Below, one piece after another: positions 830 through 45,796 of a stretch of 45,796 nt of DNA. The notes beneath the pieces were generated by a model. It was not told the DNA's origin. It saw nothing but the letters and a program-made list of their open reading frames with translations, and ran no database searches. The position numbers and the translations under genes were made by a program. Every line of letters begins with the position of its first letter. The first letter of the stretch is position 1. This stretch comes from an uncultured Bacilli bacterium (GTDB lineage Bacteria > Bacillota_I > Bacilli_A > RF39 > UBA660): the NCBI GenBank assembly GCA_947632565.1, contig CANRPT010000006.1, positions 1 through 45,796 of the forward strand. Direction: 5' to 3'.

Positions 830-1186
830 ATGGATGATAGTATCCTTAACGATCTAAAGAAAATGTTGGGGATGTCGCCTGAATTCAAAGAGTTTGATCA
901 AGATCTAATCATTCATGTCAATTCTGTATTCATGACTTTGCATCAATTGGGGGTTGGGCCAAAAAATGTTTTTAGGATTTCTGGATCCACAGAAACATGG
1001 TCTAGTTTTCTTTCTGACTCTAGAACGGAAGACGATCTTTCTGCAGTAAAAGACTATATTTATCTTAAACTTAGAATTCTATTTGATCCTCCGTCTAGCT
1101 CTTATGTTCTGTCGGCGTTAGAGTCTCAAATGAAAGAATTAGAATGGAGGCTTAATGTTCAGGCAGAAAGGGGTGAAGAAATTTGA
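830..1186 (+). CDS. Head-tail connector, phage gp6-like (adaptor)
   Basis: ATG 830 follows GGAAGGAGTG at 814-823; the upstream in-frame TTG at 806 is rejected. The 118-aa, mostly helical product opens DDSILNDLKKMLGM and continues with FDQDLIIHVNSVFMTLHQLG, the pattern of the gp6-like/Ad1 head-tail connector family that forms a ring under the portal. The late segment DYIYLKLRILFDPPSSSYVL also fits the family. It is unusual for this gene to lie before the large terminase instead of after the capsid gene, but the order recurs in related gut phages as far as I recall. The end overlaps the next gene by 4 nt. Confidence 0.7.
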   Translation: MDDSILNDLKKMLGMSPEFKEFDQDLIIHVNSVFMTLHQLGVGPKNVFRISGSTETWSSFLSDSRTEDDLSAVKDYIYLKLRILFDPPSSSYVLSALESQMKELEWRLNVQAERGEEI

Positions 1187-1650
1187 CTTTTGAAGAGGAG
1201 TATGATCCTGTTGATATTGAAGACTACCTCGCTCATTATGGCCGAAAAGGCATGAAGTGGTATGAGCATATTTTTGGCAAGCTTCAGGAACATGCGAAGT
1301 ATAATAAGAAAAAGTCTGCTCAAAAGAAAGCCAGCAAGCAAATAGAAAAAGAAGAAAAGAAGAAAAAAAGAGCCAGTTATAAAAAACTTTCCGATGAAGA
1401 ATTAAGAAGAAGGATCGATAGACAAAAGCTAGAAAAAGAATATTTGGAGCTTACTAAAGAAACGAGAACAAATAGTCAAAGATTGGTAAAGCGGGCTCTT
1501 AACTTGTTAGAAGATGTTGGGTTTGATGTTGTAAAAGGTTCTGTTGAGAATATTGGAAAACAGTATGTAACATATTGGCTTGGAACAGCGATAAACACTA
1601 AACTTGGTTATGAAGCTGTAAATCCTAAAAAGGGACAAAAAGATAAGTAG
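1183..1650 (+). CDS. Small basic protein with N-terminal HYGRKGMKW tag
   Basis: It starts at TTG 1183, overlapping the stop of the upstream gene, with GGGGTGAAG as ribosome binding site. The 155-aa product begins with an acidic segment (EEEYDPVDIED) followed by the tag YLAHYGRKGMKWYEHIFG, then a strongly basic, Lys-rich coiled-coil region and a hydrophobic-to-neutral C-terminus. Function is unknown. I know the HYGxKGMKW tag from the N-termini of many gut-phage proteins near head genes. A second copy of the tag begins the protein at 3421, and the RNA-polymerase-like protein at 42650 starts with a related DFLIHYG. A minor virion or DNA-associated internal head protein is plausible; this is inference. 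Confidence 0.6.
   Translation: MTFEEEYDPVDIEDYLAHYGRKGMKWYEHIFGKLQEHAKYNKKKSAQKKASKQIEKEEKKKKRASYKKLSDEELRRRIDRQKLEKEYLELTKETRTNSQRLVKRALNLLEDVGFDVVKGSVENIGKQYVTYWLGTAINTKLGYEAVNPKKGQKDK
1219..1277 (+). repeat. Tag-encoding direct repeat, copy 1
   Basis: This 59-nt stretch encodes EDYLAHYGRKGMKWYEHIFG. It matches 3442-3500 at 56 of 59 positions by eye, while the rest of the two host genes is unrelated. The near-identity at DNA level suggests recent duplication or gene conversion of a tag cassette. Confidence 0.9.
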
Positions 1651-3420: not shown

Positions 3421-3849
3421 TTGAGTTTTGTTATTAATGAAGAAGACTACCTCGCTCATTATGGCCGAAAAGGTATGAAATGGTATCAGCATATTTTTGG
3501 TGATAAGCAGCTTGAAGGACTTGAAAAAGGTGATAGAAGAAAAGCCGAACGTCGTATGAATAAGTATGGGCGGAAAGGCATGAAGGTCGAGAAGCTTTAT
3601 AATAAGAGCGAGAAGTATTTAGCAAGAGCAAAGAAGCATAAAATCTTTTTTTCTACTGCTAGAGAAAATAGAGCCGTTAATAAAGCAGCTAAAGCTCTTA
3701 GAAAGATGTCTCAAAAAGGGTATAAGCTGACGAAAGATGAAACTGGACGAAAGATTTTAGACGAAGTTCTAAAAGCTAATGGCGGTTATAAGTATATAGA
3801 TTATCTTAAGAATAAACGAATTTATGAGAGGGTTTATCGTAAGATTTAA
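3421..3849 (+). CDS. Second HYGRKGMKW-tagged small basic protein
   Basis: It starts at TTG 3421 after a weak GTGGTGAT site. The 142-aa product opens with EEDYLAHYGRKGMKWYQHIFG, almost the same as the protein at 1183, and repeats a shorter form of the tag inside itself (NKYGRKGMKV, about residues 48-57). The rest is very rich in Lys and Arg and mainly helical. Function is unknown. Its position between the large terminase and portal, its basic charge and the shared tag suggest an internal head or DNA-binding virion protein, but nothing in the sequence proves this. Confidence 0.6.
   Translation: MSFVINEEDYLAHYGRKGMKWYQHIFGDKQLEGLEKGDRRKAERRMNKYGRKGMKVEKLYNKSEKYLARAKKHKIFFSTARENRAVNKAAKALRKMSQKGYKLTKDETGRKILDEVLKANGGYKYIDYLKNKRIYERVYRKI
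3442..3500 (+). repeat. Tag-encoding direct repeat, copy 2
   Basis: Second copy of the 59-nt tag cassette, differing from 1219-1277 at three positions. A diverged third version (GGGCGGAAAGGCATGAAG, near 3568-3585) encodes the internal GRKGMK repeat of the same gene. Confidence 0.9.
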
Positions 3850-3869: not shown

Positions 3870-5117
3870 ATGGCGATTAGTTTTGGTGATAGGCTTAAAC
3901 ATGCTTGGAATGCCTTTAATGGACGGGACCCTCACCAATACTTCCGAAGGGATATCGGAACGAGCTATGGATATCGTCCAGATCGCCAACGATTTAATCT
4001 TGGAGTAGATCGGTCAATAATCGCCTCCGTCTATACTAAGCTTGCAATGGATGTAGCTTCTGTAAAAATTATGCACATTCGTCAGGATCAAAATGGGAGA
4101 TTTTTGGAAGAAATTCCATCTAGACTTGACAGGTGTCTAACTCTCGAAGCAAATCTTGATCAGAGTGGTCGAGCATTCATTCAGGATGTCGCGGCTTCAA
4201 TGTTCGATGAAGGTTGTGTGGCGATAGTTCCTGTAGAAGCAAGTGTAGACATTACTAAAACTGATTCATATCAGATTGAAAAACTTCGAGTTGGTAAGAT
4301 TGTAGAATGGTACCCTAAGTACATTCGTGTTTCTGTTTATAATGAAAAGACTGGGGAAAAGGAAGAACTCTTAATGCCTAAGAGAGTTTGTGCTATTGTT
4401 GAGAATCCTTTCTATTCGATTATGAACGAACCGAATTCTATTCTACAGAGATTGATTCGAAAGATGAATCAGCTTGATGTTGTCGATGATCAGATCAGTT
4501 CTGGTAAACTTGATTTAATTATTCAGCTTCCTTATGTTGTTAGAAACAAACTTAAGGAAGATGCTGCTGAACAACGTCGTAAGCAGATTGAAATGCAGCT
4601 AGTAGGTTCTAAGTATGGAATTGCATACATTGACGGAACTGAAAGGATTACTCAGTTGAATCGTCCTGCAGAGAATAATTTTCTCGAACAGATCAAATAC
4701 CTTACGAGCATGTTATTTAACCAGTTGGGTATGACTGAAGAGATCTTTAATGGAACTGCGGATGAGGCTACAACTTTGAATTACTTTAATCGGAGCATCG
4801 AGCCATGTTTGGCTGCTATTACAGATGCTATGAATCGAGCATTCTTAACTCAGACTGCTAGGACGCAAGGTCAGAGGATTATCTATCTTAGAGATCCTTT
4901 TAAGCTTGTTCCAGTTAGTCAGATTTCTGAAATTGCAGATAAATTTACTAGAAACGAAATTCTTAGCCCGAATGAGATAAGGGCTATTGTTGGTTATAGG
5001 CCTGTTGAAGATCCTGCTGCAGATGAACTTAGAAATAGAAATCTAAATCAGGACACAGATGCTCAAACCAGCATTCCAGTTGTTGAGGAAGGAGAAGAAG
5101 GTCAAAATGGCAGATAA
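3870..5117 (+). CDS. Portal protein, HK97 type
   Basis: The 415-aa product forms the twelve-subunit ring through which DNA enters and leaves the head. A strong AAAGGAGGTG precedes the ATG. HK97-portal features are visible: the N-terminal segment with RSIIASVYTKLAMDVAS, the stem and crown region, and the C-terminal signature LTSMLFNQLGMTEEIFNG followed by YFNRSIEPCLAAITDAMNRAFL. The Pro-rich, acidic C-terminus (DQDTDAQTSIPVVEEGEEGQ) overlaps the protease-capsid gene by 11 nt, typical of translational coupling in this module. Confidence 0.93.
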   Translation: MAISFGDRLKHAWNAFNGRDPHQYFRRDIGTSYGYRPDRQRFNLGVDRSIIASVYTKLAMDVASVKIMHIRQDQNGRFLEEIPSRLDRCLTLEANLDQSGRAFIQDVAASMFDEGCVAIVPVEASVDITKTDSYQIEKLRVGKIVEWYPKYIRVSVYNEKTGEKEELLMPKRVCAIVENPFYSIMNEPNSILQRLIRKMNQLDVVDDQISSGKLDLIIQLPYVVRNKLKEDAAEQRRKQIEMQLVGSKYGIAYIDGTERITQLNRPAENNFLEQIKYLTSMLFNQLGMTEEIFNGTADEATTLNYFNRSIEPCLAAITDAMNRAFLTQTARTQGQRIIYLRDPFKLVPVSQISEIADKFTRNEILSPNEIRAIVGYRPVEDPAADELRNRNLNQDTDAQTSIPVVEEGEEGQNGR

Positions 5118-6888
5118 GTATGATTTTACTGGTTATGCTACTAAATTCAATACTCGTTGTTCAGATGGTCGTAGAATTATGAAGGATGCTTTCTTGGATA
5201 ATCCTAAGATTGTTCCTATGGTGTGGCAGCATATGCACAATGATCCTGATAATGTTCTTGGGCATTGTGTTCTTGAGAATCGTGATGATGGTGTCTATGC
5301 TTATGGAAAGTTCAATGATTCTCAGAAGGCAAAGCAGGCAAAGCTTCTTGTTGAGCATCGAGACATTAATGCTATGTCTATTTGGGCGAATCAGCTTAAA
5401 CAGGTTGGCTCTGATGTGATTCATGGTGTAATTAAAGAGGTTAGTCTTGTTCTTGCTGGGGCAAATCCCGGCGCTTTGATTGAAAATGTTTCGATTGCAC
5501 ATTCTGATGGTTCTATTACTGATGTGGATGATGAAGCTGTAATCTATAGTGATGAAAAGATTTCTACTGAAGATTTGGAGCATGCAGATGAGTCCAATTC
5601 TTCTGATGAGACTATTGAAGATATTTTTAATAGCCTTACTGATAAGCAAAAGGATGCTGTTTATGCTATTATTGGAACCATTGTTGATGACGATGATGAA
5701 GCTGAACACGGGGACGATTATGGTGAAGATTTCGAAGAGGAAGGTGGAAATGTCATGAAAGTGAACGTGTTTGACAAGGGTGGTAGGGAGACTACTCAGT
5801 CTCGTAATGTTTTGACTCATTCGGATTTCGTTAAGATTTCTGAAGACGCTAAGAAGTGTGGTTCTCTTAAGCAGGCTTATGAGGGGTACATCGCTGATAA
5901 TCACATTGCTCATGCGATGCCTGAGGTTGCCGATGGTACTGCTGGCACTGATTATGGTATTAATAATCTTGAGGTGCTTTTCCCTGAGTATCGTAACATT
6001 AGTGAGACCCCTGAGGTTATTAAGCGTGATGATGCTTGGGTTGCGGGTGTTATCGGTGGTGCTCGTAAGGTTCCGTTTTCTAAGATTCGGACCATGAGTG
6101 TTGATATTACCGAGGATATCGCGAGGGCGAGGGGTTATAAGAAGGGCCATCTGAAGAAGGAAGAGGTTATTAAGATGGCTAAGCGTACGACTGGTCCTTG
6201 CACGATTTATAAGAAGCAGCGTATGGATCGCGATGATATCATTGATATTACTAGCTTCGATGTTGTCGCTTTCCTGAAGCGGGAGATGCAGAGCATGCTT
6301 CGCGAGGAACTTGCTCGTCAGATTCTTGTTAGTGATGGTCGAGATGCTGGTTCCGATGATAAGATCGATGATCAGTGCATTCGCCCGATCTACAAGGAGG
6401 AAGAGTTCTACGCTTATCATGTTGAGGTTACTATGCCTGAGCAGACTCCGAATGATGAGAACTATGCCGAGTGGGTTGCTCTGATCGATAGCATTATGCT
6501 GGCGATGGTTGACTACAATGGTTCTGGTTCCCCGGCTCTGTATACGACTAAGGAGATTCACACTCGTCTTCGTATGATTCGTGATCGTCTTGGCCGTAAG
6601 CTGTATACTTCTGATGCTGAGCTCTGCGATGCTATTGGTGTTACTCGCATCGTTGATGTTCCGGTCATGAAGGATATGAAGGACAAGGAGTCCAATAAGC
6701 CTCTGTATGGCATCATTGTCGATATGCGCGACTATACTATCGGTATGAATCGTGGCGGTGAGACGACCTTCTTCGATGATTTCGATATTGATTACAACCA
6801 GTATCGTTATCTGTACGAGACTCGTCTCTCTGGCGCTTTGACGAAGTCTGACTCGGCTGTTATTCTGGAGGGTAAGGCAAACCCTTGA
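5107..6888 (+). CDS. Prohead protease fused to major capsid protein
   Basis: ATG 5107 follows GGAGAAGAAGG; the earlier TTG 5059 is rejected. The 593-aa product has two parts. Residues 1-140 resemble the HK97 U35 prohead protease: a VPMVWQHMHNDP histidine segment, then DINAMSIWA with the likely catalytic Ser, and VSLVLAGANPGALIENV. Residues 150-215 are very acidic, like a delta/scaffold domain. From about residue 217 (MKVNVF) to the end is an HK97-fold-like major capsid protein (DYGINNLEVLFPEYRNI; RLRMIRDRLGRKLYTS). Codon use shifts near 5755 from AT-rich to CGT/CTG/GAG-rich, as expected for an abundant capsid protein. Protease-scaffold-capsid fusions are known but uncommon; the precursor may self-cleave. 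Confidence 0.88.
   Translation: MADKYDFTGYATKFNTRCSDGRRIMKDAFLDNPKIVPMVWQHMHNDPDNVLGHCVLENRDDGVYAYGKFNDSQKAKQAKLLVEHRDINAMSIWANQLKQVGSDVIHGVIKEVSLVLAGANPGALIENVSIAHSDGSITDVDDEAVIYSDEKISTEDLEHADESNSSDETIEDIFNSLTDKQKDAVYAIIGTIVDDDDEAEHGDDYGEDFEEEGGNVMKVNVFDKGGRETTQSRNVLTHSDFVKISEDAKKCGSLKQAYEGYIADNHIAHAMPEVADGTAGTDYGINNLEVLFPEYRNISETPEVIKRDDAWVAGVIGGARKVPFSKIRTMSVDITEDIARARGYKKGHLKKEEVIKMAKRTTGPCTIYKKQRMDRDDIIDITSFDVVAFLKREMQSMLREELARQILVSDGRDAGSDDKIDDQCIRPIYKEEEFYAYHVEVTMPEQTPNDENYAEWVALIDSIMLAMVDYNGSGSPALYTTKEIHTRLRMIRDRLGRKLYTSDAELCDAIGVTRIVDVPVMKDMKDKESNKPLYGIIVDMRDYTIGMNRGGETTFFDDFDIDYNQYRYLYETRLSGALTKSDSAVILEGKANP
5737..5757 (+). promoter_or_regulatory. Internal ribosome binding site and ATG for separate capsid protein
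   Basis: Inside the fusion gene, GAGGAAGG at 5737-5744 sits 10 nt before an in-frame ATG at 5755. Translation from here would give a 377-aa capsid protein without protease and scaffold. The site coincides with the domain border and with the start of optimised codon use, which favours a real second start that makes the large excess of capsid subunits. It is inference. Confidence 0.5.
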
Positions 6889-11296: not shown

Positions 11297-11674
11297 ATGG
11301 GAGTAGTTTTCAGTCATAAAGGAGATCTTAAGAAGACTGAACAATTCTTAAAAAGAATGGCCAAAAGAGACGTCTTCAATGGCCTTGAAAAGTATGCCAA
11401 ACAAGGTGTGGACGCTCTATCGTCAGCTACTCCCATTGACTCCGGATTAACGGCAGAATCTTGGGGGTATGAAATCCATACCTCCAAGGATTTTTATGAA
11501 ATAGTTTGGACCAATTCTAATGTCAATAACGGAGTTCCAATAGCTATTATCCTTCAATACGGCCATGCAACAGGAACCGGCGGATATGTTCAGGGTCGTG
11601 ATTATATAAACCCAGCAATTAGACCGGTTTTTGATAAAATTGCCGAAAATGTTTGGAAGGAGGTAGTTAAGTAA
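11297..11674 (+). CDS. HK97 gp10-like tail/neck component
   Basis: The 125-aa product fits the HK97-gp10_like family: helix GLEKYAKQGVDALSSATPID, then SGLTAESWGYEI, strand IVWTNSNVNNGVPIAIILQY, and GHATGTGGYVQGRDYINPAI ending in a helix. Members sit at the head-tail junction or help finish the tail. Here the gene stands between endolysin and tape measure instead of in the neck cluster. Its stop codon overlaps the tape measure start by one base. Confidence 0.82.
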   Translation: MGVVFSHKGDLKKTEQFLKRMAKRDVFNGLEKYAKQGVDALSSATPIDSGLTAESWGYEIHTSKDFYEIVWTNSNVNNGVPIAIILQYGHATGTGGYVQGRDYINPAIRPVFDKIAENVWKEVVK

Positions 11675-17600: not shown

Positions 17601-17934
17601 TCTTTCTAATGTCGAGTATGGAGCGAATCAAATTAGTTCTATATTTTCTCAGGATCAAACGATAGGTCTTGGTGGATATCAGAATCCGTTTATTCCTAGG
17701 ATTATTTCTCAAATTAGCTCGAATATGGGCAATCAGGATACGGGGACTATGTATGTGGATAATTCTGATGTTATTGAAGCTATTAGAGATCTTGGGGATG
17801 AGTTTGAAACTATTAAGAACGCGATTGCTCAAATGAGGATTGTTATGAATAGAGATGCTTTAGTTGGTGAAATTATAGATAAAGTTGATTCTGAATTAGG
17901 GAGAATAGCAAGCATAAAGAATAGGAGGATATAA
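11674..17934 (+). CDS. Tape measure protein (2086 aa) with Cpl-7 domain
   Basis: This longest gene sets tail length; at roughly 1.5 A per residue, 2086 aa predicts a tail of about 310 nm. The N-terminus carries tape-measure features (SIDKRIVEMKFDNKEFEAGI; TSYNFTDMVNNVGKFTSVGV; LQDWKSIELANMATIDF). Residues 486-528 form a Cpl-7-like wall-binding repeat (RGDFGNGDKRIK; LTEAGYDYKQVQ). Residues about 950-1260 hold hydrophobic, possibly membrane-inserting repeats. Residues about 1430-1710 hold five copies of a 60-aa GxFGxQL repeat. The C-terminal region has the usual RSPSRVTMRSGEYFDQGFV motif. An inside-virion role in crossing wall and membrane is likely. Confidence 0.95.
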   Translation: MSSIDKRIVEMKFDNKEFEAGIQASLKSLENLRKGLDLKGATDGIKNIEKAVSGFDMSGMSKSIDSIAQHFTWVGRTIDHTLDAITNKAIYVGKQLVTSLTIDQVNVGWSKFEEKTRSVGTIMSSTGKSVDEVNTSLEKLNWFTDETSYNFTDMVNNVGKFTSVGVDLDDAVTAMEGIANAAALAGGGVGEASRAMYNFSQAMGTGKLLLQDWKSIELANMATIDFKNSLIESGLAMGTLVKQGNKYVTTTKDGTGAISSFTDANEGFRDSLSAGWITTEVMMDTFKKYGEYADEIYKITESEGITAAEAMERFSSGTVTLGERAFKAAQEARTFTDAIEATKDAVSTGWMQSFEIIFGNYEQAKVMWTDLANTLWDVFAGGAEARNDLLRETFQEAKNIVSTEDWDKIADDIPFVDTFRKAILDTAKDHGIALENMYTDEAAFYTLLEKGEITTDLLTEALNRVGGSGKDASSGLSGTTEQLEELEKVAKKVIRGDFGNGDKRIKALTEAGYDYKQVQSVVNKLLKGQTITVEDLSEAELKQIGYTEEQIKELNQLKEIAEKTGTPLNQLIDTMNRPTGRELMIESASNAFEALMKIIQSVKDAWADVFPAMTADRLYSIIERVRDFTQSLIVSNDTADKLKRVFRGVFSVFDILGQALSSTVRFFGKLLEILKPTGDWLLSTGAKVGDFWFDLSKNFRELGVFDHIADGLLKVLQTLGRKLKVVKGVIIGQLNASGLLEPIKSTWADFMNWINSKGGIVGLIDSFFNLINEWVSKLDALKIGTSIINFIKGIKDNFKGVSGLKDFIERAFKPIFDFFGSLDLKIGGSLRGGTKSVTDWVISFIKGIKDALGGIGKGIGGAFGSAKDSIVGGFGWLSDAIDSVTSFIKEKISPVLSLIKDILLLKTLSSINKFIGGLGKTFESVSDIISNASQILEDFRGILKDWAKGIEKMMSAKSRELNANAVLKVAESIVILVGALWILSKIDPDTVYDSISILAVLMGGLLLFTKSLGSGGKTEVKISGFLGLAMGVFVLVKTMQSIAKMDIKEVIKSMGEVGALLLILSKFTNLTDSTFKASNGAALLLTAISLQGFVLTMVELSNMDPGKAIGGMIALGFLLAEVGGFTRLVNKDLKFRNGAALLMIGISLQTFVLAMIELAHMKPENAVKGILGLGVLLTEVGLFTKKMGKDLKFSSGASLIAIGASMLIFGQAMKQIGSLDFGTIIKGLVGMGAALLEISIFTKSSSNMGISSGIGTAVSMASLLVLIPLFKELSKLPNMEKVGIGFGAGIAGIGIGLQALSKVGGIAGALSASGALLTISGTIGIIITVVEVVAGLVAKIKGSREFLEGAADILSLVGGAIGAFIGSIGTGIMAGVGAGLAAIGQGLSDFWNSASVFIEGAKTIKAEDMGGIGALSEAVLKLTASEFLDAVTSLIGGGEKNLETFGAQLKTLGGNLSSFSDEAKKVDQKAVEAAAAALQAITNVEVPESGGLLQALIGEKNYGNFGRQLGSLGTGLSDFMTSVQGIENFNKIKDAAGAIADLVAVEIPTTGGFIDYIVGRTDWGVFGEQLAAFGPNFAQFATDVNGVEVKGLAGAAEALGVLLSINPPTTDWGLIQIFTGTTNWGKFGTQLQQFGAGFQRFAKAMKGVTEADLDIIPTAVTTLQDLMDLDPPKQGGFFQMLVGEKDLGTFGDNIGKLGKGFGTFNTNVKEVNVVRISNLTTILERLGNFLNSLSNGVIDNVSNFITALSLIDSGNLTFEETIKSINGWQTQFADSGKALATACVKQITDTISKATTPIESIEHILNGMLTTIGNYNQRFETRGGTLISNVVYGMNKYKTNVTNAAGNLAVKALDTLNGYGEYFKSSGAYLAQGFVYGLGSKANAVVAAARSLADVANYAFNRRLQIRSPSRVTMRSGEYFDQGFVIGLQNRSKDVENASGDVAYSAIDSFTTAMTLIEGILKNSVDFQPTIRPVVDLSNVEYGANQISSIFSQDQTIGLGGYQNPFIPRIISQISSNMGNQDTGTMYVDNSDVIEAIRDLGDEFETIKNAIAQMRIVMNRDALVGEIIDKVDSELGRIASIKNRRI
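14880..15420 (+). repeat. Tandem hydrophobic repeats in tape measure
   Basis: Three clear units of about 60 aa (one more diverged copy before and one after) repeat the pattern FxNGAALLxxxISLQxFVLxM, then MxPxxAxxGxxxLGxLLxEV and GxFT. Each unit offers two hydrophobic helices, which suggests a bundle able to enter the host membrane during DNA ejection. Confidence 0.8.
15972..16800 (+). repeat. Five-fold 60-aa GxFGxQL repeat in tape measure
   Basis: Copies start near 15972, 16141, 16324, 16504 and 16696 (about 180-190 nt apart). Shared protein pattern: GG(F/L) hydrophobic IVG, then WGxFGxQLxxxG, then FxxFxxxVxGV and a helix. DNA identity between copies is low, so the repeats are old and kept at protein level. 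Confidence 0.8.
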
Positions 17935-25973: not shown

Positions 25974-25975
25974 CT

Positions 25976-25999
25976 CGTAAAAATTACAAGCTTTATTAT
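25976..25999 (+). promoter_or_regulatory. Phage-type promoter P1
   Basis: CGTAAAAATTACA (25976-25988), 5 nt, then TATTAT (25994-25999). The -10 is part of a larger palindrome, TTATTAT-AGA-ATAATAA, that runs up to the ribosome binding site. Drives the gene at 26026. Confidence 0.85.
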
Positions 26000-26025
26000 A
26001 GAATAATAAAGGAGGTTGAACTAAG

Positions 26026-26304: not shown

Positions 26305-26326
26305 GCCTACAAAGGCTCTTTCTTTT
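26303..26326 (+). terminator. Terminator overlapping stop codon
   Basis: GAGCCT-ACAA-AGGCTC (26303-26318) plus a T-rich run. The TGA stop (26302-26304) forms the first bases of the stem. The same terminator occurs at 27940. Confidence 0.88.
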
Positions 26327-26350
26327 CGTATTTTTTACATCTTCTATAGT
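26327..26350 (+). promoter_or_regulatory. Phage-type promoter P2
   Basis: CGTATTTTTTACA, 5 nt, TATAGT (26345-26350), directly after the previous terminator; drives 26368. Confidence 0.8.
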
Positions 26351-26367
26351 AGAAAGGAGGAAGTGGT

Positions 26368-26661: not shown

Positions 26662-26685
26662 AATGCCCTTTCTCTTTTTTTTTTT
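26647..26685 (+). terminator. Terminator with stop codon in the loop
   Basis: AAAGGGC (26647-26653) pairs with GCCCTTT (26665-26671); the TAA stop at 26659-26661 is in the loop. A long T-run follows and merges with promoter P3. Confidence 0.88.
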
Positions 26686-26709
26686 CGTAATTTTTACAGT
26701 TCCTTTAAT
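26686..26709 (+). promoter_or_regulatory. Phage-type promoter P3
   Basis: CGTAATTTTTACA, 5 nt, TTTAAT (26704-26709), then AGAAAGGAAGG; drives 26730. Confidence 0.85.
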
Positions 26710-26729
26710 AGAAAGGAAGGTGTTCTTAA

Positions 26730-26981: not shown

Positions 26982-26985
26982 AATT

Positions 26986-27009
26986 CGTAAATTTTACAAT
27001 TATTATAAT
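26986..27009 (+). promoter_or_regulatory. Phage-type promoter P4
   Basis: CGTAAATTTTACA, 5 nt, perfect TATAAT (27004-27009). The GTAA and TTAC half-sites are intact. Drives 27030. Confidence 0.88.
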
Positions 27010-27029
27010 AGAAAGGAAGGTGTTTTTAA

Positions 27030-27230: not shown

Positions 27231-27253
27231 AGAGGCATAGCCTCTTCTTTTTT
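27229..27253 (+). terminator. Rho-independent terminator
   Basis: GAAGAGGC-ATA-GCCTCTTC (27229-27247), then TTTTTT. The stem starts within the TGA stop at 27228-27230. The GGCATAGCC core is common to the other cassette terminators. Confidence 0.9.
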
Positions 27254-27277
27254 CGTAATTTTTACAGTTCCTTTAAT
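27254..27277 (+). promoter_or_regulatory. Phage-type promoter P5
   Basis: CGTAATTTTTACA, 5 nt, TTTAAT (27272-27277); almost identical to P3 and P8. Drives 27295. Confidence 0.85.
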
Positions 27278-27294
27278 AGAAAGGAGTGATTTAT

Positions 27295-27470: not shown

Positions 27471-27474
27471 ACCT

Positions 27475-27498
27475 CGTAAAATTTACAGTGTTTATAAT
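27475..27498 (+). promoter_or_regulatory. Phage-type promoter P6
   Basis: CGTAAAATTTACA, 5 nt, perfect TATAAT (27493-27498). Lies before the 15-codon ORF and the tRNA gene. Confidence 0.87.
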
Positions 27499-27515
27499 AG
27501 AAAGGAAGATGATGA

Positions 27516-27579: not shown

Positions 27580-27657
27580 GCCCCAGTGGTGCAATCGGCA
27601 GACACAACGGACTTAAAATCCGTCAAGCTATGGGTTCAAATCCCATCTGGGGCACCA
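27580..27657 (+). tRNA. tRNA-Leu (anticodon UAA), short variable arm
   Basis: The acceptor stem GCCCCAG/CTGGGGC is perfect, with discriminator A and encoded CCA. The anticodon stem ACGGA/TCCGT holds loop CTTAAAA (anticodon TAA, reads UUA). The T arm ATGGG/CCCAT has loop TTCAAAT. A73 and the D-loop GGTG...CGGCAGACAC resemble leucine tRNAs, but the variable region is only about 6 nt instead of the long class II arm. It matches the TTA-rich codons of the Dit, Tal and tape measure genes. Confidence 0.88.
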
Positions 27658-27659
27658 TT

Positions 27660-27683
27660 CGTATTTTTTACAGTTCTTATTAT
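27660..27683 (+). promoter_or_regulatory. Phage-type promoter P7
   Basis: CGTATTTTTTACA begins 2 nt after the tRNA CCA; 5 nt, then TATTAT (27678-27683) within the palindrome TTATTAT-AGA-ATAATAA, as in P1. Drives 27708. Confidence 0.85.
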
Positions 27684-27707
27684 AGAATAATAAAGGAGGT
27701 TGGTAGT

Positions 27708-28384: not shown

Positions 28385-28386
28385 TT

Positions 28387-28410
28387 CGTAATTTTTACAA
28401 TTCCTTTAAT
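28387..28410 (+). promoter_or_regulatory. Phage-type promoter P8
   Basis: CGTAATTTTTACA, 5 nt, TTTAAT (28405-28410), starting 2 nt after the stop of the previous gene with no terminator between; drives 28430. Confidence 0.85.
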
Positions 28411-28429
28411 AGAAAGGAAGGTGCTTTAA

Positions 28430-28670: not shown

Positions 28671-28674
28671 AGTT

Positions 28675-28698
28675 CGTAATTTTTACAGTCCTTATTAT
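28675..28698 (+). promoter_or_regulatory. Phage-type promoter P9
   Basis: CGTAATTTTTACA, 5 nt, TATTAT (28693-28698), then AGAAACGATAAGGAGG; drives 28723. Confidence 0.85.
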
Positions 28699-28722
28699 AG
28701 AAACGATAAGGAGGTAATTGGT

Positions 28723-30642: not shown

Positions 30643-30644
30643 TT

Positions 30645-30668
30645 CGTAAAAATTACAATGTTTATAAT
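30645..30668 (+). promoter_or_regulatory. Phage-type promoter P10
   Basis: CGTAAAAATTACA, 5 nt, perfect TATAAT (30663-30668). A small hairpin GAGGT-AGA-ACCTC (30670-30682) lies at the expected 5' end of the transcript, before the ribosome binding site. Drives 30708. Confidence 0.87.
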
Positions 30669-30707
30669 AGAGGTAGAACCTCAATTAATTTTAAGGAGGA
30701 TTTTGGT

Positions 30708-30887: not shown

Positions 30888-30888
30888 T

Positions 30889-30912
30889 CGTAACTTTTAC
30901 ATGGCTTATAAT
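30889..30912 (+). promoter_or_regulatory. Phage-type promoter P11
   Basis: CGTAACTTTTACA, 5 nt, perfect TATAAT (30907-30912), then AGAAAGGAG. Drives 30930. Confidence 0.87.
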
Positions 30913-30929
30913 AGAAAGGAGTTGGTATC

Positions 30930-35235: not shown

Positions 35236-35503
35236 GAAAAACGTCACATTTGTGACACTTTTAATGTTAAGATTTTGTTAAATTTGTGTTAACTGCAATT
35301 TTTTGTGACACTTTTTTGACATATTGTGACACTTTTTTTTCAAAAGTGTCACGTTGAAAACGCCTGTGCCCCAGGGGTTTTGGGCACTTTTGTGACACTT
35401 TGCCACTTTTTTTCATAAACTTTTATTAGAGAAAAAATCAATTTTTAAAAAGTTTTAAAAACAAAGTGGCAAATTGACAAAATGACATGTAAGGAGGTTG
35501 AGT
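35213..35503 (+). repeat. TGTGACACTTTT iteron region, candidate replication origin
   Basis: This is the longest non-coding stretch (35236-35503). Direct copies of TGTGACACTTTT occur at 35251, 35304, 35325 and, shortened, 35391. Inverted copies occur at 35213-35225 and 35342-35352; the latter forms a long hairpin with the copy at 35325. GTCAC-ATTT-GTGAC (35243-35256) and GTGCCC/GGGCAC (35366-35387) add dyads. TGCCACTTT (35401) and AAAGTGGCA (35463) bracket an extremely A/T-rich segment that could melt. Position just before the replication genes favours an origin; a multi-operator for a regulator is the alternative. Confidence 0.7.
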
Positions 35504-40547: not shown

Positions 40548-41748
40548 TCTATATCCTCATCAGAAAGAGGCTGTAGAGAAGCTCAGGTCTGGCTCCATCC
40601 TTTGTGGTGGAGTCGGATCTGGGAAATCAATTACAGCTCTTTTTTATTTTTTTCAAAAAGTTTGTAGTAATATGAATAATCCTATGGATCTTTATATTAT
40701 TACAACTGCCAGAAAAAGAGATACTTTAGAATGGGATAAAGAATGTTCTAAATTTTCAATTAGTAAGAATCGAGAAGATAGTGCTGGTCATATTTTGTTG
40801 GTTATTGATTCTTGGAATAATATTCACAAATATGAAAAGATCACAAATGCTTTTTTTATTTTTGATGAACAGAGGGTTGTAGGTTCTGGTAGTTGGGTAA
40901 AGTCATTTTTGAAGATTACAAAAAATAATCAATGGATTATTTTAAGTGCTACACCTGGGGATACTTGGTCAGATTATATCCCCGTGTTCGTTGCAAATGG
41001 GTTTTATAGAAATCGAACTGATTTTTTTAGACAGCATGTTATTTATGATCGTTATTCAAAGTATCCGAAGATTGATAGATATATCGAATGTGGAAAATTA
41101 ACTTCATATTTAAGGAGGATTTTAGTTAAGATGGACTATAACAGAACAAAAAAGATTCATAAAGAAGATATTGTTTGTTATTATGATAAAAGTAAGTATA
41201 AAGAGATTATGAAGACCAGAGTTAATCCATTTAAGAATGGGGAACCAATAAATGATGCATCAACTCTTTGTTATACTTTAAGAAAAGTGGTTAATCAAGA
41301 TCCTAGTAGGATTCAAGCAATTAGAGAATTGGTTTTAACTCACGATAAGATAATTATATTTTATAATTATGATTATGAGCTTGATTTATTAAAAGTGGCA
41401 TTGCTTGATTTGTTTGATATTTTTTCACTTGATTTTGGTTATGCGGAATGGAATGGCCATAAACATGAGAATATTCCTAAAACTGACAAATGGGTATATT
41501 TGGTTCAGTATGCTGCTGGAGCTGAAGGATGGAATTGTACTGAAACAAATGTAATTATATTTTTCTCTCAGAATTATTCATATCGTTCGATGGTTCAGGC
41601 GGCTGGCAGAATTGATAGGATTAATAGCCCATTTGATAATTTATATTATTATAGAATTCGTTCTTCTGCACCGATTGATATTGCAATTAATCGTGCTCTT
41701 ATGAATAAAAAGAACTTTAACGAAAATAATTTTTATAAACGCTCGTAA
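40537..41748 (+). CDS. SF2 (DEAD/SNF2-like) helicase
   Basis: The 403-aa product has motif Q/I (LYPHQKEAVEKL; GGVGSGKSIT), motif II FDEQR (a DExx variant), motif III ILSATP, a C-terminal RecA domain (HDKIIIFYNYDYELDLLKVA; YLVQYAAGAEGWNCTETNVI) and motif VI QAAGRIDR. This is a compact SF2 helicase as in phage SNF2/DEAD proteins acting at forks or in recombination. No nuclease domain is attached; the two nucleases that follow are probably its partners. Confidence 0.88.
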   Translation: MNINLYPHQKEAVEKLRSGSILCGGVGSGKSITALFYFFQKVCSNMNNPMDLYIITTARKRDTLEWDKECSKFSISKNREDSAGHILLVIDSWNNIHKYEKITNAFFIFDEQRVVGSGSWVKSFLKITKNNQWIILSATPGDTWSDYIPVFVANGFYRNRTDFFRQHVIYDRYSKYPKIDRYIECGKLTSYLRRILVKMDYNRTKKIHKEDIVCYYDKSKYKEIMKTRVNPFKNGEPINDASTLCYTLRKVVNQDPSRIQAIRELVLTHDKIIIFYNYDYELDLLKVALLDLFDIFSLDFGYAEWNGHKHENIPKTDKWVYLVQYAAGAEGWNCTETNVIIFFSQNYSYRSMVQAAGRIDRINSPFDNLYYYRIRSSAPIDIAINRALMNKKNFNENNFYKRS

Positions 41749-41767
41749 AAAATACATATGCTATAAT
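41744..41767 (+). promoter_or_regulatory. Phage-type promoter P12
   Basis: CGTAAAAAATACA, 5 nt, perfect TATAAT (41762-41767), starting inside the last codons of the helicase gene. Drives the nuclease-RNA polymerase operon; a hairpin with T-run follows at once. Confidence 0.85.
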
Positions 41768-41774
41768 GGAATGG

Positions 41775-41807
41775 AATAGGATGTCTCCGCATTCTATTTA
41801 TTTTTTT
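41775..41807 (+). terminator. Terminator-like hairpin between P12 and the nuclease gene
   Basis: AATAGGATG (41775-41783) pairs with CATTCTATT (41790-41798) around TCTCCG, with one G-T pair, followed by TATTTTTTT. It lies downstream of P12 and upstream of the ribosome binding site, the reverse of the usual terminator-promoter order. It could attenuate P12 or end the helicase transcript. Confidence 0.7.
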
Positions 41808-41825
41808 CGAAAGGAGGTGTCATTC

Positions 41826-42161
41826 TTGTTAGAATCTTCGTTTCAAAGATCTTTGGTTAAAGACATCGAAAATAAATTTCCAGGTTCTATTATTATTAAG
41901 AATGATACATCTCATAAACAAGGGTTTCCCGATTTAACAATATTGTATAAAAATAAATGGGCGGTTCTTGAATGTAAAAGATCTAAGACTGCACCGCATC
42001 AACCAAATCAAGATAAGTATGTCGATATTCTAGATAAAATGTCCTTCTCGAGATTTGTGTATCCAGAGAATAAGGAGGAAGTATTAGATGAACTTCAACA
42101 AGCATTCAAACCTAGAAGGCCAACACGCGTTTCTAAGCGCGAGCAAGTATCATTGGATTAA
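41826..42161 (+). CDS. VRR-NUC domain nuclease
   Basis: TTG 41826 is chosen because AAAGGAGGTG lies upstream; ATG 41766 falls in the promoter -10. The 111-aa product shows the VRR-NUC core: ESSFQRSLVKDIENKF, GFPDLTIL (Asp of the PD pair), WAVLECKRS (ExK) and QPNQDKYVDIL. These small Holliday-junction-type nucleases accompany SF2 helicases in phage replication modules. It overlaps the next gene by 74 nt. Confidence 0.85.
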   Translation: MLESSFQRSLVKDIENKFPGSIIIKNDTSHKQGFPDLTILYKNKWAVLECKRSKTAPHQPNQDKYVDILDKMSFSRFVYPENKEEVLDELQQAFKPRRPTRVSKREQVSLD

Positions 42162-42648
42162 TTATGATGATGAAAAGCTTACTTTAGCTTTCAAGAATCA
42201 TTTGGCTACTTTGAGAGGAACCGAACTTCATGAATTTGCATACAACGCTATTCGTCTTGGGATTCGTCTTCCTTCTTCAAAGAAGACTTTGAATATGTAT
42301 ATTAATGATGCAATTGGATTTAGAATGAATGTTGAGCAGCCTCTATATTATTCTGAGAATGCTTTTGGAACTGCAGATTCTATTTCTTTTAGAAAAGGTG
42401 TTCTTAGAATTCATGATTTGAAGACTGGACAAAGTTCTGTTTCTATGCATCAGCTAGAAGTCTATGCGGCCTTATTTTGTTTGGAATATCATAAAAAGCC
42501 TTCCGATATTAAAATCATGCTCCGTATTTATCAGTCTGATAAGGTTATTTGTTATGAACCTCCGGCTGAGGATATTTTATTTATAATGGATAAAATTGTT
42601 AGATTTGATAAAAAGATTGAAGAGATGAAGATTGAGGAGGATATTTGA
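42088..42648 (+). CDS. PD-(D/E)XK nuclease, RecB/Cas4-like
   Basis: The 186-aa product has the RecB-family motifs in order: the H in RGTELHEFAY, FGTADSI (Asp), LRIHDLKTG (DxK) and QLEVYAALF (Q-x3-Y). The AAGGAGGAAG site lies inside the upstream gene. No four-Cys cluster is seen, so it is RecB-like without the Fe-S cluster of Cas4. A role in DNA end processing or recombination, together with the SF2 helicase and VRR-NUC protein, is likely. Confidence 0.8.
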   Translation: MNFNKHSNLEGQHAFLSASKYHWINYDDEKLTLAFKNHLATLRGTELHEFAYNAIRLGIRLPSSKKTLNMYINDAIGFRMNVEQPLYYSENAFGTADSISFRKGVLRIHDLKTGQSSVSMHQLEVYAALFCLEYHKKPSDIKIMLRIYQSDKVICYEPPAEDILFIMDKIVRFDKKIEEMKIEEDI

Positions 42649-42649
42649 A

Positions 42650-45445
42650 ATGGATGATTTCTTGATTCATTACGGAACCCCCCATGAAGGAATTATACCA
42701 CATTCCGGAAGATTTGAATACGGTTCTGGTGAAGACCCTTACCAAGGAAGAATTGATTTTCTTGGAAGAGTTAAGCAGATGCGGGCAAGTGGAGAATATT
42801 CTTCTGATACAGAAATAGCTAGAGCTATGGAAATGTCTTCTGATCAGTTTCGATCTAGACTTTCTTCAGAAAGAGCTAGAAAGCAACAGGCCGATATTGC
42901 TATGGTTCAAAAGCTTAAGGATAAAGGGATGTCTAATGTTGCTATAGCTGAAAGATTAGGAATGACTGAAGGAACTGTTCGAAATTATCTTAAAGATAGA
43001 GAGGTTAGAAAAGAAACAACAATTTCTAATGTAAAACAAATTATTAAAGAAAATATCGATTCAAATGGCATCGTTGATGTTGGCGTTGGAACAGAGCGAT
43101 ATTTAGGAGTAAGTCGAGAGAAAATGAAAGCTGCTTTACAAGAACTTAGAGATGAAGGCTATAAAGTATATTATAGTAAAGTAAAGCAGCTTGGCACTGG
43201 TGAAGAGACTACTCTTATGGGGATCTGCCCTCCAGATATTAATTATTCTGAATTTAAGAAACGTCTTGAAAATAATGAATGGTATGTTATTACAGATAGA
43301 TCGGAAGATGGAGGAAAGACATTTACAAAAATAGAGCCCCCTAGAAGTGTCGATTCCTCCAGAATTCAAATTTGTTATGCAGAACAAGGTGGAATTGATA
43401 AAGATGGTGTTGTTGAGCTTCGTCGTGGTGTTGAAGATATTTCTTTAGGAAATGCCAGATATGCTCAAGTTCGTATTGCCGTTGATGGGACTCATTATAT
43501 TAAAGGAATGGCGATGTATCGAGATGATATGCCAGATGGTATTGATATTATATTTAATACCAATAAACATCTTGGAACGCCAATGCTAGATCCTAACCCC
43601 GATGCAAAACAAGTTTTGAAGCCAATGAGTGATGACCCAGAAAATCCTTTTAAAGCTTCAATTAAAAAAGATAATGAATTGGTTCTTGCCCAGAGACATT
43701 ATATTGATTCTAATGGCAAGGAACAGCTTTCTTCTTTGAATATTGTAAACGAAGAAGGAAGTTGGGGGACTTGGAGTAAGTCATTGTCTTCTCAATTTTT
43801 ATCTAAACAGTCAACTGTTCTTGCTAAGCAGCAGTTAGATCTAGAATATAAGTTTAAGCAAGAAGAATTTGATGAGATAATGTCTCTAACTAATCCGACT
43901 GTTAAGAGAAAGCTTCTTAAGGAATTTTCTGATGGTTGTGATTCCGATGCTGTTCATTTGAAAGCCGCTGGACTTCCTAGGCAGGGTTCATATGTTATTT
44001 TACCCACTCCAGATATAAAGCCGAATGAAGTTTATGCTCCTAATTATAAAGATGGAGAAACGGTTGCATTAATTCGTTATCCCCATGGTGGCGTGTTTGA
44101 GATTCCAGAATTGACAGTTAATAACCATTCAAAAGGGGCAAAGTCTCTTATGCCAAAAGGCGATGAAAGAAGCTTAAGAGATGCTATTGGTATTCACCCT
44201 AAAGTAGCGTCTACTCTTTCAGGAGCCGACTTTGATGGCGATACTGTATTGGTTATTCCAATGTCTACTGCTAAACTTAAAACTTCTAAATCTGAATTTG
44301 GAAGATCTAAAGCGTTTGAATCTTTAAAGGACTTTGATCCTAAAGAATCTTATCCATACTACGATGGAATGAAAGTCATGACTGATAAGGCAAAAGGAAA
44401 ATACATGGGTGATGTTTCTAATTTGATTACAGACATGACGATTAAAGGAGCAAGTCCAGATGAGATTGTAAGGGCAGTAAAGCATTCAATGGTCGTTATT
44501 GATGCCCCTAAGCATAAACTTAATTTTAGACAATCCTATGAGGATAATCGAATTGGAGAACTAAAAGAGAAGTATCAAGGCGGAGAAAGAAAAGGTGCAT
44601 CAACTCTTATCTCTAAAGCAAAGGGTGTCAAGTATATTAATGAAAGAAAAGAAGGTCAGGAGATTATAGATCCTAGCACTGGAAAGAAAAGGACAATTTA
44701 CATTAATCCTGACACAGGAGAAAAATTGTATACTGATACTGGTAGAAAGTTAGTAAAAGCTATCAGAGATAAAGAGACTAATCAAATAATAGGCTACACC
44801 GAGGGGGGTCGAGCACAAACAAAGACCACTTGGATGAAAGAAGCTAAGGATGCTAGGGAACTTTCATCCGGTACCCGTATGGAAGAAGTTTATGCCCAGC
44901 ACGCAAATAAATTAAAGGCTTTAGCGAATAAAGCTAGAAAAGCTTACTTAGATACACCTCCCCTCAAATATGAACCTTCTGCAAAGAGGGTATACAAAAA
45001 TGAAGTAGCCTCACTGGTTGCAGATTTAAACATTGCTCTTAAAAATGCACCTTTAGAAAGGAAGGCCCAACTTTTAGCAAATAATAGGGCTCGTGTAAAA
45101 AAAGAGGCCAATCCTGGTTTGGATGCAGAGCATAAAAAGAAGATTGATGGAAGAGAGCTTACAAAAGCAAGAGAAGATGTTGGTGCTGGAAAGAAAAGAA
45201 TTAAGTTAACCCCAGAGAGAGTAAAAGTTATTAACTCCGGTGCTATTAGTGATAGTATGCTCAGTAAAATATTAAATAATATGGATTCTAGAGAAATAAA
45301 AGAAGCTTTTACTCCTAGAACTCAGAAAGTTATGAGTGCTTCTAAGATTAACTTAGCAAAGAATCTTGCTGCTCTACATTATACTACTTCTGAGATTGCT
45401 GATAGACTTGGCGTATCAGTGTCAACAATTAATCGCTATCTTTAA
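42650..45445 (+). CDS. YonO-like single-chain RNA polymerase candidate with N-terminal HYG tag
   Basis: ATG 42650 follows GAGGAGGATATTTGAA. The 931-aa product begins MDDFLIHYGTPHEG and HSGRFEYGSGEDPYQG, a tag recalling the DYLAHYG tag of the head-region proteins at 1183 and 3421. Two helix-turn-helix units follow (about residues 50-115; MSNVAIAERLGMTEGTVRNY). The core has RYPHGGVFEIPEL, then IGIHPKVASTLSGADFDGDT with D527, D529, D531, and HSMVVIDAPKH near 614-624. These match the beta-prime-type catalytic loop (xADFDGDxM) and downstream VDxxK motif of YonO/crAss gp47/RNA-silencing polymerases. A final helix-turn-helix (SEIADRLGVSVSTINRYL) ends the chain. Catalysis and virion packaging are inferred. 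Confidence 0.72.
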   Translation: MDDFLIHYGTPHEGIIPHSGRFEYGSGEDPYQGRIDFLGRVKQMRASGEYSSDTEIARAMEMSSDQFRSRLSSERARKQQADIAMVQKLKDKGMSNVAIAERLGMTEGTVRNYLKDREVRKETTISNVKQIIKENIDSNGIVDVGVGTERYLGVSREKMKAALQELRDEGYKVYYSKVKQLGTGEETTLMGICPPDINYSEFKKRLENNEWYVITDRSEDGGKTFTKIEPPRSVDSSRIQICYAEQGGIDKDGVVELRRGVEDISLGNARYAQVRIAVDGTHYIKGMAMYRDDMPDGIDIIFNTNKHLGTPMLDPNPDAKQVLKPMSDDPENPFKASIKKDNELVLAQRHYIDSNGKEQLSSLNIVNEEGSWGTWSKSLSSQFLSKQSTVLAKQQLDLEYKFKQEEFDEIMSLTNPTVKRKLLKEFSDGCDSDAVHLKAAGLPRQGSYVILPTPDIKPNEVYAPNYKDGETVALIRYPHGGVFEIPELTVNNHSKGAKSLMPKGDERSLRDAIGIHPKVASTLSGADFDGDTVLVIPMSTAKLKTSKSEFGRSKAFESLKDFDPKESYPYYDGMKVMTDKAKGKYMGDVSNLITDMTIKGASPDEIVRAVKHSMVVIDAPKHKLNFRQSYEDNRIGELKEKYQGGERKGASTLISKAKGVKYINERKEGQEIIDPSTGKKRTIYINPDTGEKLYTDTGRKLVKAIRDKETNQIIGYTEGGRAQTKTTWMKEAKDARELSSGTRMEEVYAQHANKLKALANKARKAYLDTPPLKYEPSAKRVYKNEVASLVADLNIALKNAPLERKAQLLANNRARVKKEANPGLDAEHKKKIDGRELTKAREDVGAGKKRIKLTPERVKVINSGAISDSMLSKILNNMDSREIKEAFTPRTQKVMSASKINLAKNLAALHYTTSEIADRLGVSVSTINRYL

Positions 45446-45463
45446 AGAAAGGAGTTATTGATT

Positions 45464-45754
45464 ATGGAAAACAATGTTTTTATGATAACAACAATCGATA
45501 ATCCTTTCAATCCATTCACACAATACGATGAATGGTTAGCTTTTGATGAGCAAATGGGTTATTATACTAATAATTATTTAGCAAGGATCGCAAATACTTC
45601 TTTTGAATTGTCAGAATCAGAAGAGAATGAGGAAATTGATAACGCAATTGATGAAATTGTTCGTCTCGATCCTTTTCTTATGTACAGAAAAGTAAAAAGA
45701 TCTGATTATGATTCACAAAATCATTTGAAATTGGCTACTGAAACTACAAAATAG
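45464..45754 (+). CDS. Conserved gut-phage protein near small terminase
   Basis: ATG 45464 lies behind AAAGGAG; the in-frame TTG 45458 is rejected. The 96-aa acidic product (NNVFMITTIDNPFNPFTQYD; EWLAFDEQMGYYTNNYLARI; NEEIDNAIDEIVRLDP) matches a family I know from many gut phages by its DNPxxPFTQxDEWxxFD motif, usually directly before the terminase genes. No function is assigned. If the genome is circular, this gene lies right before the packaging operon. Confidence 0.75.
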   Translation: MENNVFMITTIDNPFNPFTQYDEWLAFDEQMGYYTNNYLARIANTSFELSESEENEEIDNAIDEIVRLDPFLMYRKVKRSDYDSQNHLKLATETTK

Positions 45755-45760
45755 AGATAG

Positions 45761-45789
45761 AGGGGGGTCTGAAAAACATACACCCCCCT
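45761..45789 (+). other. G6/C6 hairpin at window end (terminator or packaging-site candidate)
   Basis: AGGGGGGT (45761-45768) pairs perfectly with ACCCCCCT (45782-45789) around 13 nt, followed by CCCCCAT and the window end. There is no T-run in view. As a terminator it would close the RNA polymerase operon; its position next to the small terminase (if circular) also fits a cos/pac-type site. The first 37 bases of the window hold AGTCTT twice but no clear promoter. Confidence 0.5.
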
Positions 45790-45796
45790 CCCCCAT

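Follow-up and report, generated by a model that had tools for sequence, protein, structure and literature searches.

Virion RNA polymerases are known from crAss-like, jumbo, N4-like and P23-45-type phages, and those of the crAss-like phages, which have podovirus morphology, are larger proteins than the one described here. The stretch of DNA analysed (45,796 nucleotides, hereafter the window) is contig C6 of a 1.44-Mb assembly from an uncultured Bacilli bacterium and reads as a siphophage genome. An open reading frame (ORF) that begins with the ATG at 42650, and whose stop codon ends at 45445, encodes a protein of 931 amino acids (aa) which is, with near certainty, an RNA polymerase (RNAP). The favoured reading, considered probable, is a virion-carried, DNA-dependent, two-barrel enzyme that reads its own promoter, a 28-bp element repeated in the window.

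For crAss-like phage phi14:2, PMC7886860 (citing Drobysheva 2020) describes gp66 as a single chain with two double-psi beta barrels (DPBB), akin to eukaryotic RNA-dependent RNA polymerases (RdRPs), that is packaged in the virion and to which transcription of the early genes is ascribed. The window RNAP is likewise a predicted single-chain, two-barrel enzyme for which virion carriage and transcription of early genes are proposed. The crAss-like enzymes, set apart from it by description, come from phages of Bacteroidota and show strong sequence divergence, whereas the window RNAP is compact (931 aa) and well conserved, with helix-turn-helix (HTH) units at both ends and an N-terminal tag, and is encoded by a siphophage with a protease-capsid fusion. 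Thermus phage P23-45 has two enzymes, gp96 (vRNAP, fused to the tail tape measure) and gp64 (nvRNAP) (PMC10770324). This system resembles the present one in being a siphovirus with two-barrel RNAPs, in having an early promoter motif common to the enzyme-carrying phages and in the alignment of gp64 at the active site; it differs in the fusion of its virion enzyme to the tape measure, since in the window phage one free enzyme with a putative tag was identified. Its promoter sequence differs as well, no matches to the 28-bp element being found in the 35 kb of P23-45 that were scanned. YonO of SPbeta, also a phage RNAP, likewise consists of one chain of about 100 kDa and has a catalytic Asp triad, but the genes it transcribes are late ones, and as of 2017 its promoter had not been resolved (PMC5467207). 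The direct orthologue is orf75 of Lactococcus phage 1706, located at the same genome position, bearing the same tag and deposited as a structural protein; no paper analysing the function of orf75 or of its family, PHROG 4291, was found.

A profile search matched the window RNAP to PHROG 4291 over its full length (aa 2-930, 1105.6 bits). Relatives with about 36-48% identity were present in 250 of 50,697 phage records, mainly from phages of Arthrobacter (95), Gordonia (55), Streptomyces (54) and Lactococcus (13), with smaller groups from Curtobacterium (7), Rhodococcus (4), Microbacterium (4), Faecalibacterium (2) and others. At least 517 stretches in IMG/VR and 154 in GTDB genomes were also matched, many of the latter from Lachnospiraceae and related Clostridia and often prophages within long chromosomal contigs; no homologues were found in the plasmids searched. 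The label of PHROG 4291 is 'RNA-dependent RNA polymerase', a name used as well in several phage records, although 'helix-turn-helix protein' or 'hypothetical' is usual, and the family had thus been annotated beforehand.

A first-pass annotation, made from the DNA letters, had proposed a 931-aa single-chain RNAP on the basis of a DFDGD triad, a VVIDAPK motif and terminal HTH units. All these features were recovered: the protein contains IGIHPKVASTLSGADFDGD, with ADFDGD at residues 526-531 and the Asp triad at D527/D529/D531, as well as HSMVVIDAPKH, and HTH profiles matched both ends, the N-terminal one with HTH_23 (1.4e-10) and sigma-70 region 4 (1.5e-10). Conservation of DFDGD in homologues had been named beforehand as a test, and the triad was invariant across 124 aligned homologues, so that it is not a chance motif; K285-G286-M287, R476 and P478-H479 were invariant too, K285-G286-M287 and R476 being candidates for the catalytic basic residues of the second barrel. 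A second related phage occurs in the same assembly (contig C24, 19,039 bp), and its RNAP is 89% identical in amino acids to that of the window, with dN 0.071 and dS 1.12, values that indicate purifying selection.

The fold was modelled with AlphaFold2 (AF2) from 124 homologue sequences, which gave a predicted local distance difference test score (pLDDT) of 86.5 and a predicted TM-score (pTM) of 0.80 and replaced a poor model based on 8 sequences (pLDDT 61). Foldseek comparison with the PDB revealed maize RDR2 (7w82, E 6e-4, probability 1.0) and Arabidopsis RDR2 as best matches, followed by beta-prime, RPB1, RPA1 and RPC1 chains, with low overall TM-scores (0.28 at best), and in the viral library BFVD the matches were phage 'RdRp' proteins and the P23-45 protein A7XX94. 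A profile alignment with P23-45 gp64 was centred exactly on GADYDGD (E 0.0015), and by this measure gp64 is the closest alignable solved relative among those tested. Sequence search of the PDB gave HTH and repeat-protein matches only, save a weak one (E 0.42) near DFDGD to 8h2n, the P23-45 tape-measure RNAP. Predicted fold and family conservation together support a single-chain member of the DPBB superfamily. The likeness to YonO that had been proposed holds at the level of the superfamily; as a family assignment it was rejected, because hhalign gave no profile match (probability 0.9%, 20 columns off the active site). The enzyme is best read as a variant of the kind known from crAss-like phages and P23-45 and not as a YonO, and by analogy with YonO, phi14:2 gp66 and the P23-45 enzymes (PMC5467207, PMC7886860, PMC10770324) its template is very likely DNA.

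The 28-bp element has the rigid form TCGYR-N4-WACA-N5-TWTWATRRR, which between the small genes of the window becomes TCGTA-N4-TTACA-N5-TWTAAT-RGA; a candidate promoter template is TCGTAAATTTTACAATTATTATAATAGA, with the blocks TCG, ACA and TATAAT. Twelve sites were found in the window, all forward (11 in the early region and 1 before the RNAP operon), where 0.04 were expected. Each early copy, at 25.9-31 kb, lies directly 5' of a ribosome-binding site and many lie directly 3' of a terminator-like hairpin. The small genes of this region are in many cases arranged as terminator-promoter-gene units, a layout also seen in relatives from five other host genera (loci L012-L017), and a tRNA-Leu (TAA) gene is found among them at 27580-27657. 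Transcription of early genes straight after injection, as suggested in the first-pass annotation, has gained a promoter-like element 5' of these genes, the transcription itself being a prediction. The operon copy is identical at 28 of 28 positions to its C24 counterpart although synonymous sites are saturated. Over the whole 1.44-Mb assembly 22 forward and 0 reverse sites were detected, all on the two RNAP-phage contigs, ten of them (all forward) on C24.

A cross-phage scan was carried out with a position weight matrix (PWM) trained leaving out the host genus of the test phage. Forward sites numbered 4 in 1706, 5 in Mudcat, 9 in Qui, 8 in Tanis, 7 in RosaAsantewaa, 11 in ReqiPepy6 and 7 in the window, and these seven phages of six host types had 0-1 reverse sites each (one overall), with an expectation of at most 0.12. 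The element recurs, with strand conserved, among relatives whose hosts are Lactococcus, Gordonia, Rhodococcus, Arthrobacter and Streptomyces. Within the 4 kb upstream of RNAP a forward site was present in 108 of 152 loci and a reverse site in 2, while no site fell inside the RNAP genes of these 152 loci; the operon sites are placed at a median of -919 from the start of the RNAP frame (interquartile range -936 to -894), where the nuclease gene begins. When IMG/VR contigs were chosen by the motif alone, RNAP was encoded in 24 of 50, and in 13 of the 15 that measured at least 40 kb; 20 of the 26 contigs without RNAP have the capsid fusion of this lineage. In bacterial genomes with RNAP prophages, the best motif matches were mostly upstream of the prophage RNAP and on the same strand, contigs being taken as equivalent by their number. 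The promoter family is newly described here and had been missed in the first-pass annotation, as had the PHROG and GenBank annotations. A literature search gave no relevant match for the promoter or tag strings, and neither the element nor the tag family seems to have been described in the literature searched.

Carriage in the virion, also proposed at first, is backed indirectly by a relative. In the original record of Lactococcus phage 1706 (EU081845) the product of orf75 is 'structural protein', a label given as well to orf6, 7, 11, 12, 17, 20, 21, 62 and 71, whereas most other products, including those of the neighbours of orf75, are 'unknown' or 'putative'. The gene is far from the morphogenesis block and its label can hardly have been derived from similarity, for which reason we infer that its source was mass spectrometry by Garneau et al. 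2008. RefSeq later renamed orf75 RNA-dependent RNA polymerase, and the ReqiPepy6 record (NC_023735) describes its own RNAP as 'similar to Lactococcus phage 1706_gp75, structural protein'.

The N-terminal tag, [L/I]xH[Y]G...SGRYPWGSG, opens nearly all complete homologues. Residues H7, G9, S19, G20, R21, G25 and G27 were invariant in the 124 sequences although residues 1-33 are predicted to be disordered, which suggests a short linear binding motif. The RNAP carries it as DFLIHYG; exactly two other window proteins, both from the packaging/head region (1183-1650 and 3421-3849), contain DYLAHYGRKGMKW, and both carry LAHYGRKGMKW, a motif named DUF7211 (PF23847) in Pfam. With a Pfam cut-off of 27 bits the RNAP tag scored 12.3 bits; it shares with DUF7211 the core [L/I]xH[Y/H]G and a more distant WG behind it, and differs in its version HYGxPRxSGRYPWGSG. 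Phages of the lineage encode from one to nine proteins with the HYG/DUF7211 motif, Arthrobacter Qui having nine and ReqiPepy6 eight; almost all of these lie on the coding strand, in the interval from RNAP, or the genome start, to the capsid gene. In 1706 the tag was found in orf7 (twice, LQHRGVIGMRWG and LLHKGVKGMKWG) and in orf75, both labelled structural, a coincidence with p 0.019 given that 11 of 76 proteins are so labelled. A role as cargo signal fits this distribution and these labels; of the capsid-targeting tag first proposed, the tag and its core shared with two packaging-region proteins stand, and targeting is plausible. A repeat of about 25 aa in the protease-capsid linker might, speculatively, be the docking site for tagged cargo: one copy is present in the window, five in Qui (L017 18335-20767), two in ReqiPepy6 and two in Tanis, and genomes with more copies have more HYG-tagged proteins (Spearman 0.42, driven by three genomes and uncorrected for descent). 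Separately, orf62 and orf71 of 1706 are small proteins labelled structural that lack the HYG tag and whose genes are far from the head genes.

According to the mechanism proposed, RNAP would be loaded into the procapsid, the candidate signal being the conserved, disordered HYG...SGRYPWGSG tail, and would be ejected along with the DNA. In the new host it would recognise the 28-bp elements, perhaps through its sigma-4-like HTH or with a partner, possibly the PHROG 4303 protein encoded next to it, and transcribe the series of small early genes as well as its own operon. Since the nuclease-exonuclease-RNAP operon has the same promoter, new enzyme would be made during infection and then packed again.

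The alternative that survives best, although judged unlikely, is that the phage RNAP does recognise the 28-bp promoters but, as with YonO or P23-45 gp64, is synthesised only once infection has begun, while the host RNAP starts the cycle; the phage enzyme would then serve middle or late genes, and any traces of it in virions would reflect contamination or passive carry-over. YonO does transcribe late genes after induction (PMC5467207), the RNAP operon has its own 28-bp promoter and, after joining of the cos ends, directly precedes the late genes, and many relatives are integrated prophages, for whose induction no virion enzyme is needed. Such timing is at odds with the structural label of 1706 orf75 and with a tag that is invariant yet predicted disordered, and, the RNAP operon and the early genes sharing one promoter type, it leaves the first synthesis unexplained unless some enzyme enters with the DNA.

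It is improbable that host RNAP reads the element guided by a phage DNA-binding protein, with TATAAT as -10 box, TCGCA/TTACA as operator and another function for the DFDGD protein. TATAAT fits the sigma-A -10 consensus at many sites and intrinsic terminators lie between early genes. Among 87 distinct operon sequences, however, the '-11' base was A in only 44 and T in 37, and the match to a -35 TTGACA signal about 17 bp upstream showed no excess over shuffled sequence (2.40 vs 2.53); by these two sequence measures the element is not sigma-70-like. Its spacing is, moreover, rigid across phages of GC-rich and AT-rich hosts, and no site occurs elsewhere in the host assembly. That the protein is a true RdRP is very improbable: plant RDR2 gave the best fold matches and several records carry that annotation, but the label seems to go back to a resemblance in fold to QDE-1/RDR, the same superfamily includes the DNA-dependent phage enzymes YonO, phi14:2 gp66 and P23-45 gp64/gp96 (PMC5467207, PMC7886860, PMC10770324), and this is a double-stranded DNA phage whose enzyme bears DNA-binding HTHs and is linked to a DNA promoter element.

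Several observations weigh against a virion-carried RNAP that reads its own promoter. The TATAAT-like half resembles the host -10 box in many phages, and the intrinsic-terminator-like hairpins between early genes (24 vs 9.5 expected) would suit the host enzyme just as well. Because the loci are related they are not independent tests, and their counts make the evidence look stronger than it is; nor can co-occurrence by itself single out the factor of the lineage that reads the promoter, since RNAP and capsid are always inherited together. The tags of RNAP and of the head proteins have just the short core [L/I]xHYG in common and lack strict covariation; for the residue after the tag histidine there was one suggestive locus (L026, V with I/V/V) and otherwise none. 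The 1706 label, finally, is the depositors' own wording, and the virion evidence comes from that relative's record and not from the window phage.

A polymerase of its own would thus be encoded by a large lineage of ordinary siphophages, among them phages of Arthrobacter, Gordonia, Streptomyces and Lactococcus that are easy to grow. Enzyme, promoter and host-independence are directly testable because the promoter can be read from the sequence, and the pair might provide an orthogonal expression system for Gram-positive bacteria. Should the tag prove to be a cargo signal, the contents of these capsids could be predicted from it. Only tentatively, and as less likely than not, a wider view is offered: a self-contained, virion-delivered transcription system of one-chain RNAP and orthogonal 28-bp promoter across phages of Actinomycetota and Bacillota, loaded into the capsid by a short linear tag also found on several packaging-region proteins (up to nine per genome), which would represent a general cargo-loading code of HK97-type siphophages.

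Table 1. Positions of the RNAP gene, its parts, the promoter-like elements and associated genes in the window.
Feature	Position	Strand	Basis
RNAP, 931-aa single-chain two-barrel (PHROG 4291)	42650..45445	+	profile match, alignment, model
N-terminal tag of RNAP, aa 1-33 (DDFLIHYGTPHEGIIPHSGRFEYGSGEDPYQ)	42650..42748	+	alignment, AF2
N-terminal HTH of RNAP, aa 84-116, sigma-70 region 4-like	42899..42997	+	profile match
DFDGD metal-binding motif, aa 527-531	44228..44242	+	sequence, alignment
C-terminal HTH of RNAP, aa 899-931	45344..45442	+	profile match
28-bp promoter-like element, early region	25975..26002	+	pattern scan
28-bp promoter-like element	26326..26353	+	pattern scan
28-bp promoter-like element	26685..26712	+	pattern scan
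28-bp promoter-like element	26985..27012	+	pattern scan
28-bp promoter-like element	27253..27280	+	pattern scan
28-bp promoter-like element	27474..27501	+	pattern scan
28-bp promoter-like element, directly after tRNA-Leu	27659..27686	+	pattern scan
28-bp promoter-like element	28386..28413	+	pattern scan
28-bp promoter-like element	28674..28701	+	pattern scan
28-bp promoter-like element	30644..30671	+	pattern scan
28-bp promoter-like element	30888..30915	+	pattern scan
Promoter-like element before nuclease-exonuclease-RNAP operon (TCGTAAAAAATACATATGCTATAATGGA)	41743..41770	+	pattern scan
VRR-type nuclease, first gene of RNAP operon	41766..42161	+	profile match
Exonuclease (PHROG 3953), second gene of RNAP operon	42088..42648	+	profile match
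98-aa protein (PHROG 4303), directly 3' of RNAP	45458..45754	+	profile match, phage-record counts
155-aa packaging-region protein, N-terminal HYG tag, same position as 1706 orf7	1183..1650	+	DUF7211 28.1 bits, above cut-off
142-aa protein between terL and portal, N-terminal HYG tag	3421..3849	+	DUF7211 25.1 bits, below cut-off
Prohead protease-major capsid fusion (PHROG 3270), same phage groups as RNAP	5059..6888	+	profile match, counts
Repeat unit of about 25 aa in protease-capsid linker (TIEDIFNSLTDKQKDAVYAIIGTIV)	5611..5685	+	repeat scan

From left to right the window encodes an HNH protein, a tagged protein, TerL, a second tagged protein, the portal, the protease-capsid fusion and tail genes with a 2086-aa tape measure, followed by about 10 kb of small genes, a primase-polymerase, an annealing protein, a helicase, the VRR nuclease, the exonuclease, RNAP and the PHROG 4303 gene at the end. 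Arthrobacter Mudcat, Streptomyces RosaAsantewaa and Rhodococcus ReqiPepy6 preserve the order nuclease-exonuclease-RNAP-small gene-genome end, and so do Lactococcus P162 and 1706, in which additional genes are present, one of them for an endolysin. RNAP, capsid fusion and PHROG 4303 have nearly equal counts by host group, so that RNAP is a core gene of the lineage; it is the hallmark enzyme of these HK97-type siphophages, whose capsid protein is fused to the protease. Endolysin-type matches were found in the protein encoded at 9662-11281, just before the tape measure (11674-17934), and the latter contains an endolysin-like segment (aa 478-528). A non-coding region at 35236-35497, just before the replication genes, contains repeated GTGACACTTT units (five matches, on either strand) and is a possible replication origin. 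A strong GGGGGGT...ACCCCCC hairpin is located at the right end of the window (45760-45796), beside the presumed cos end.

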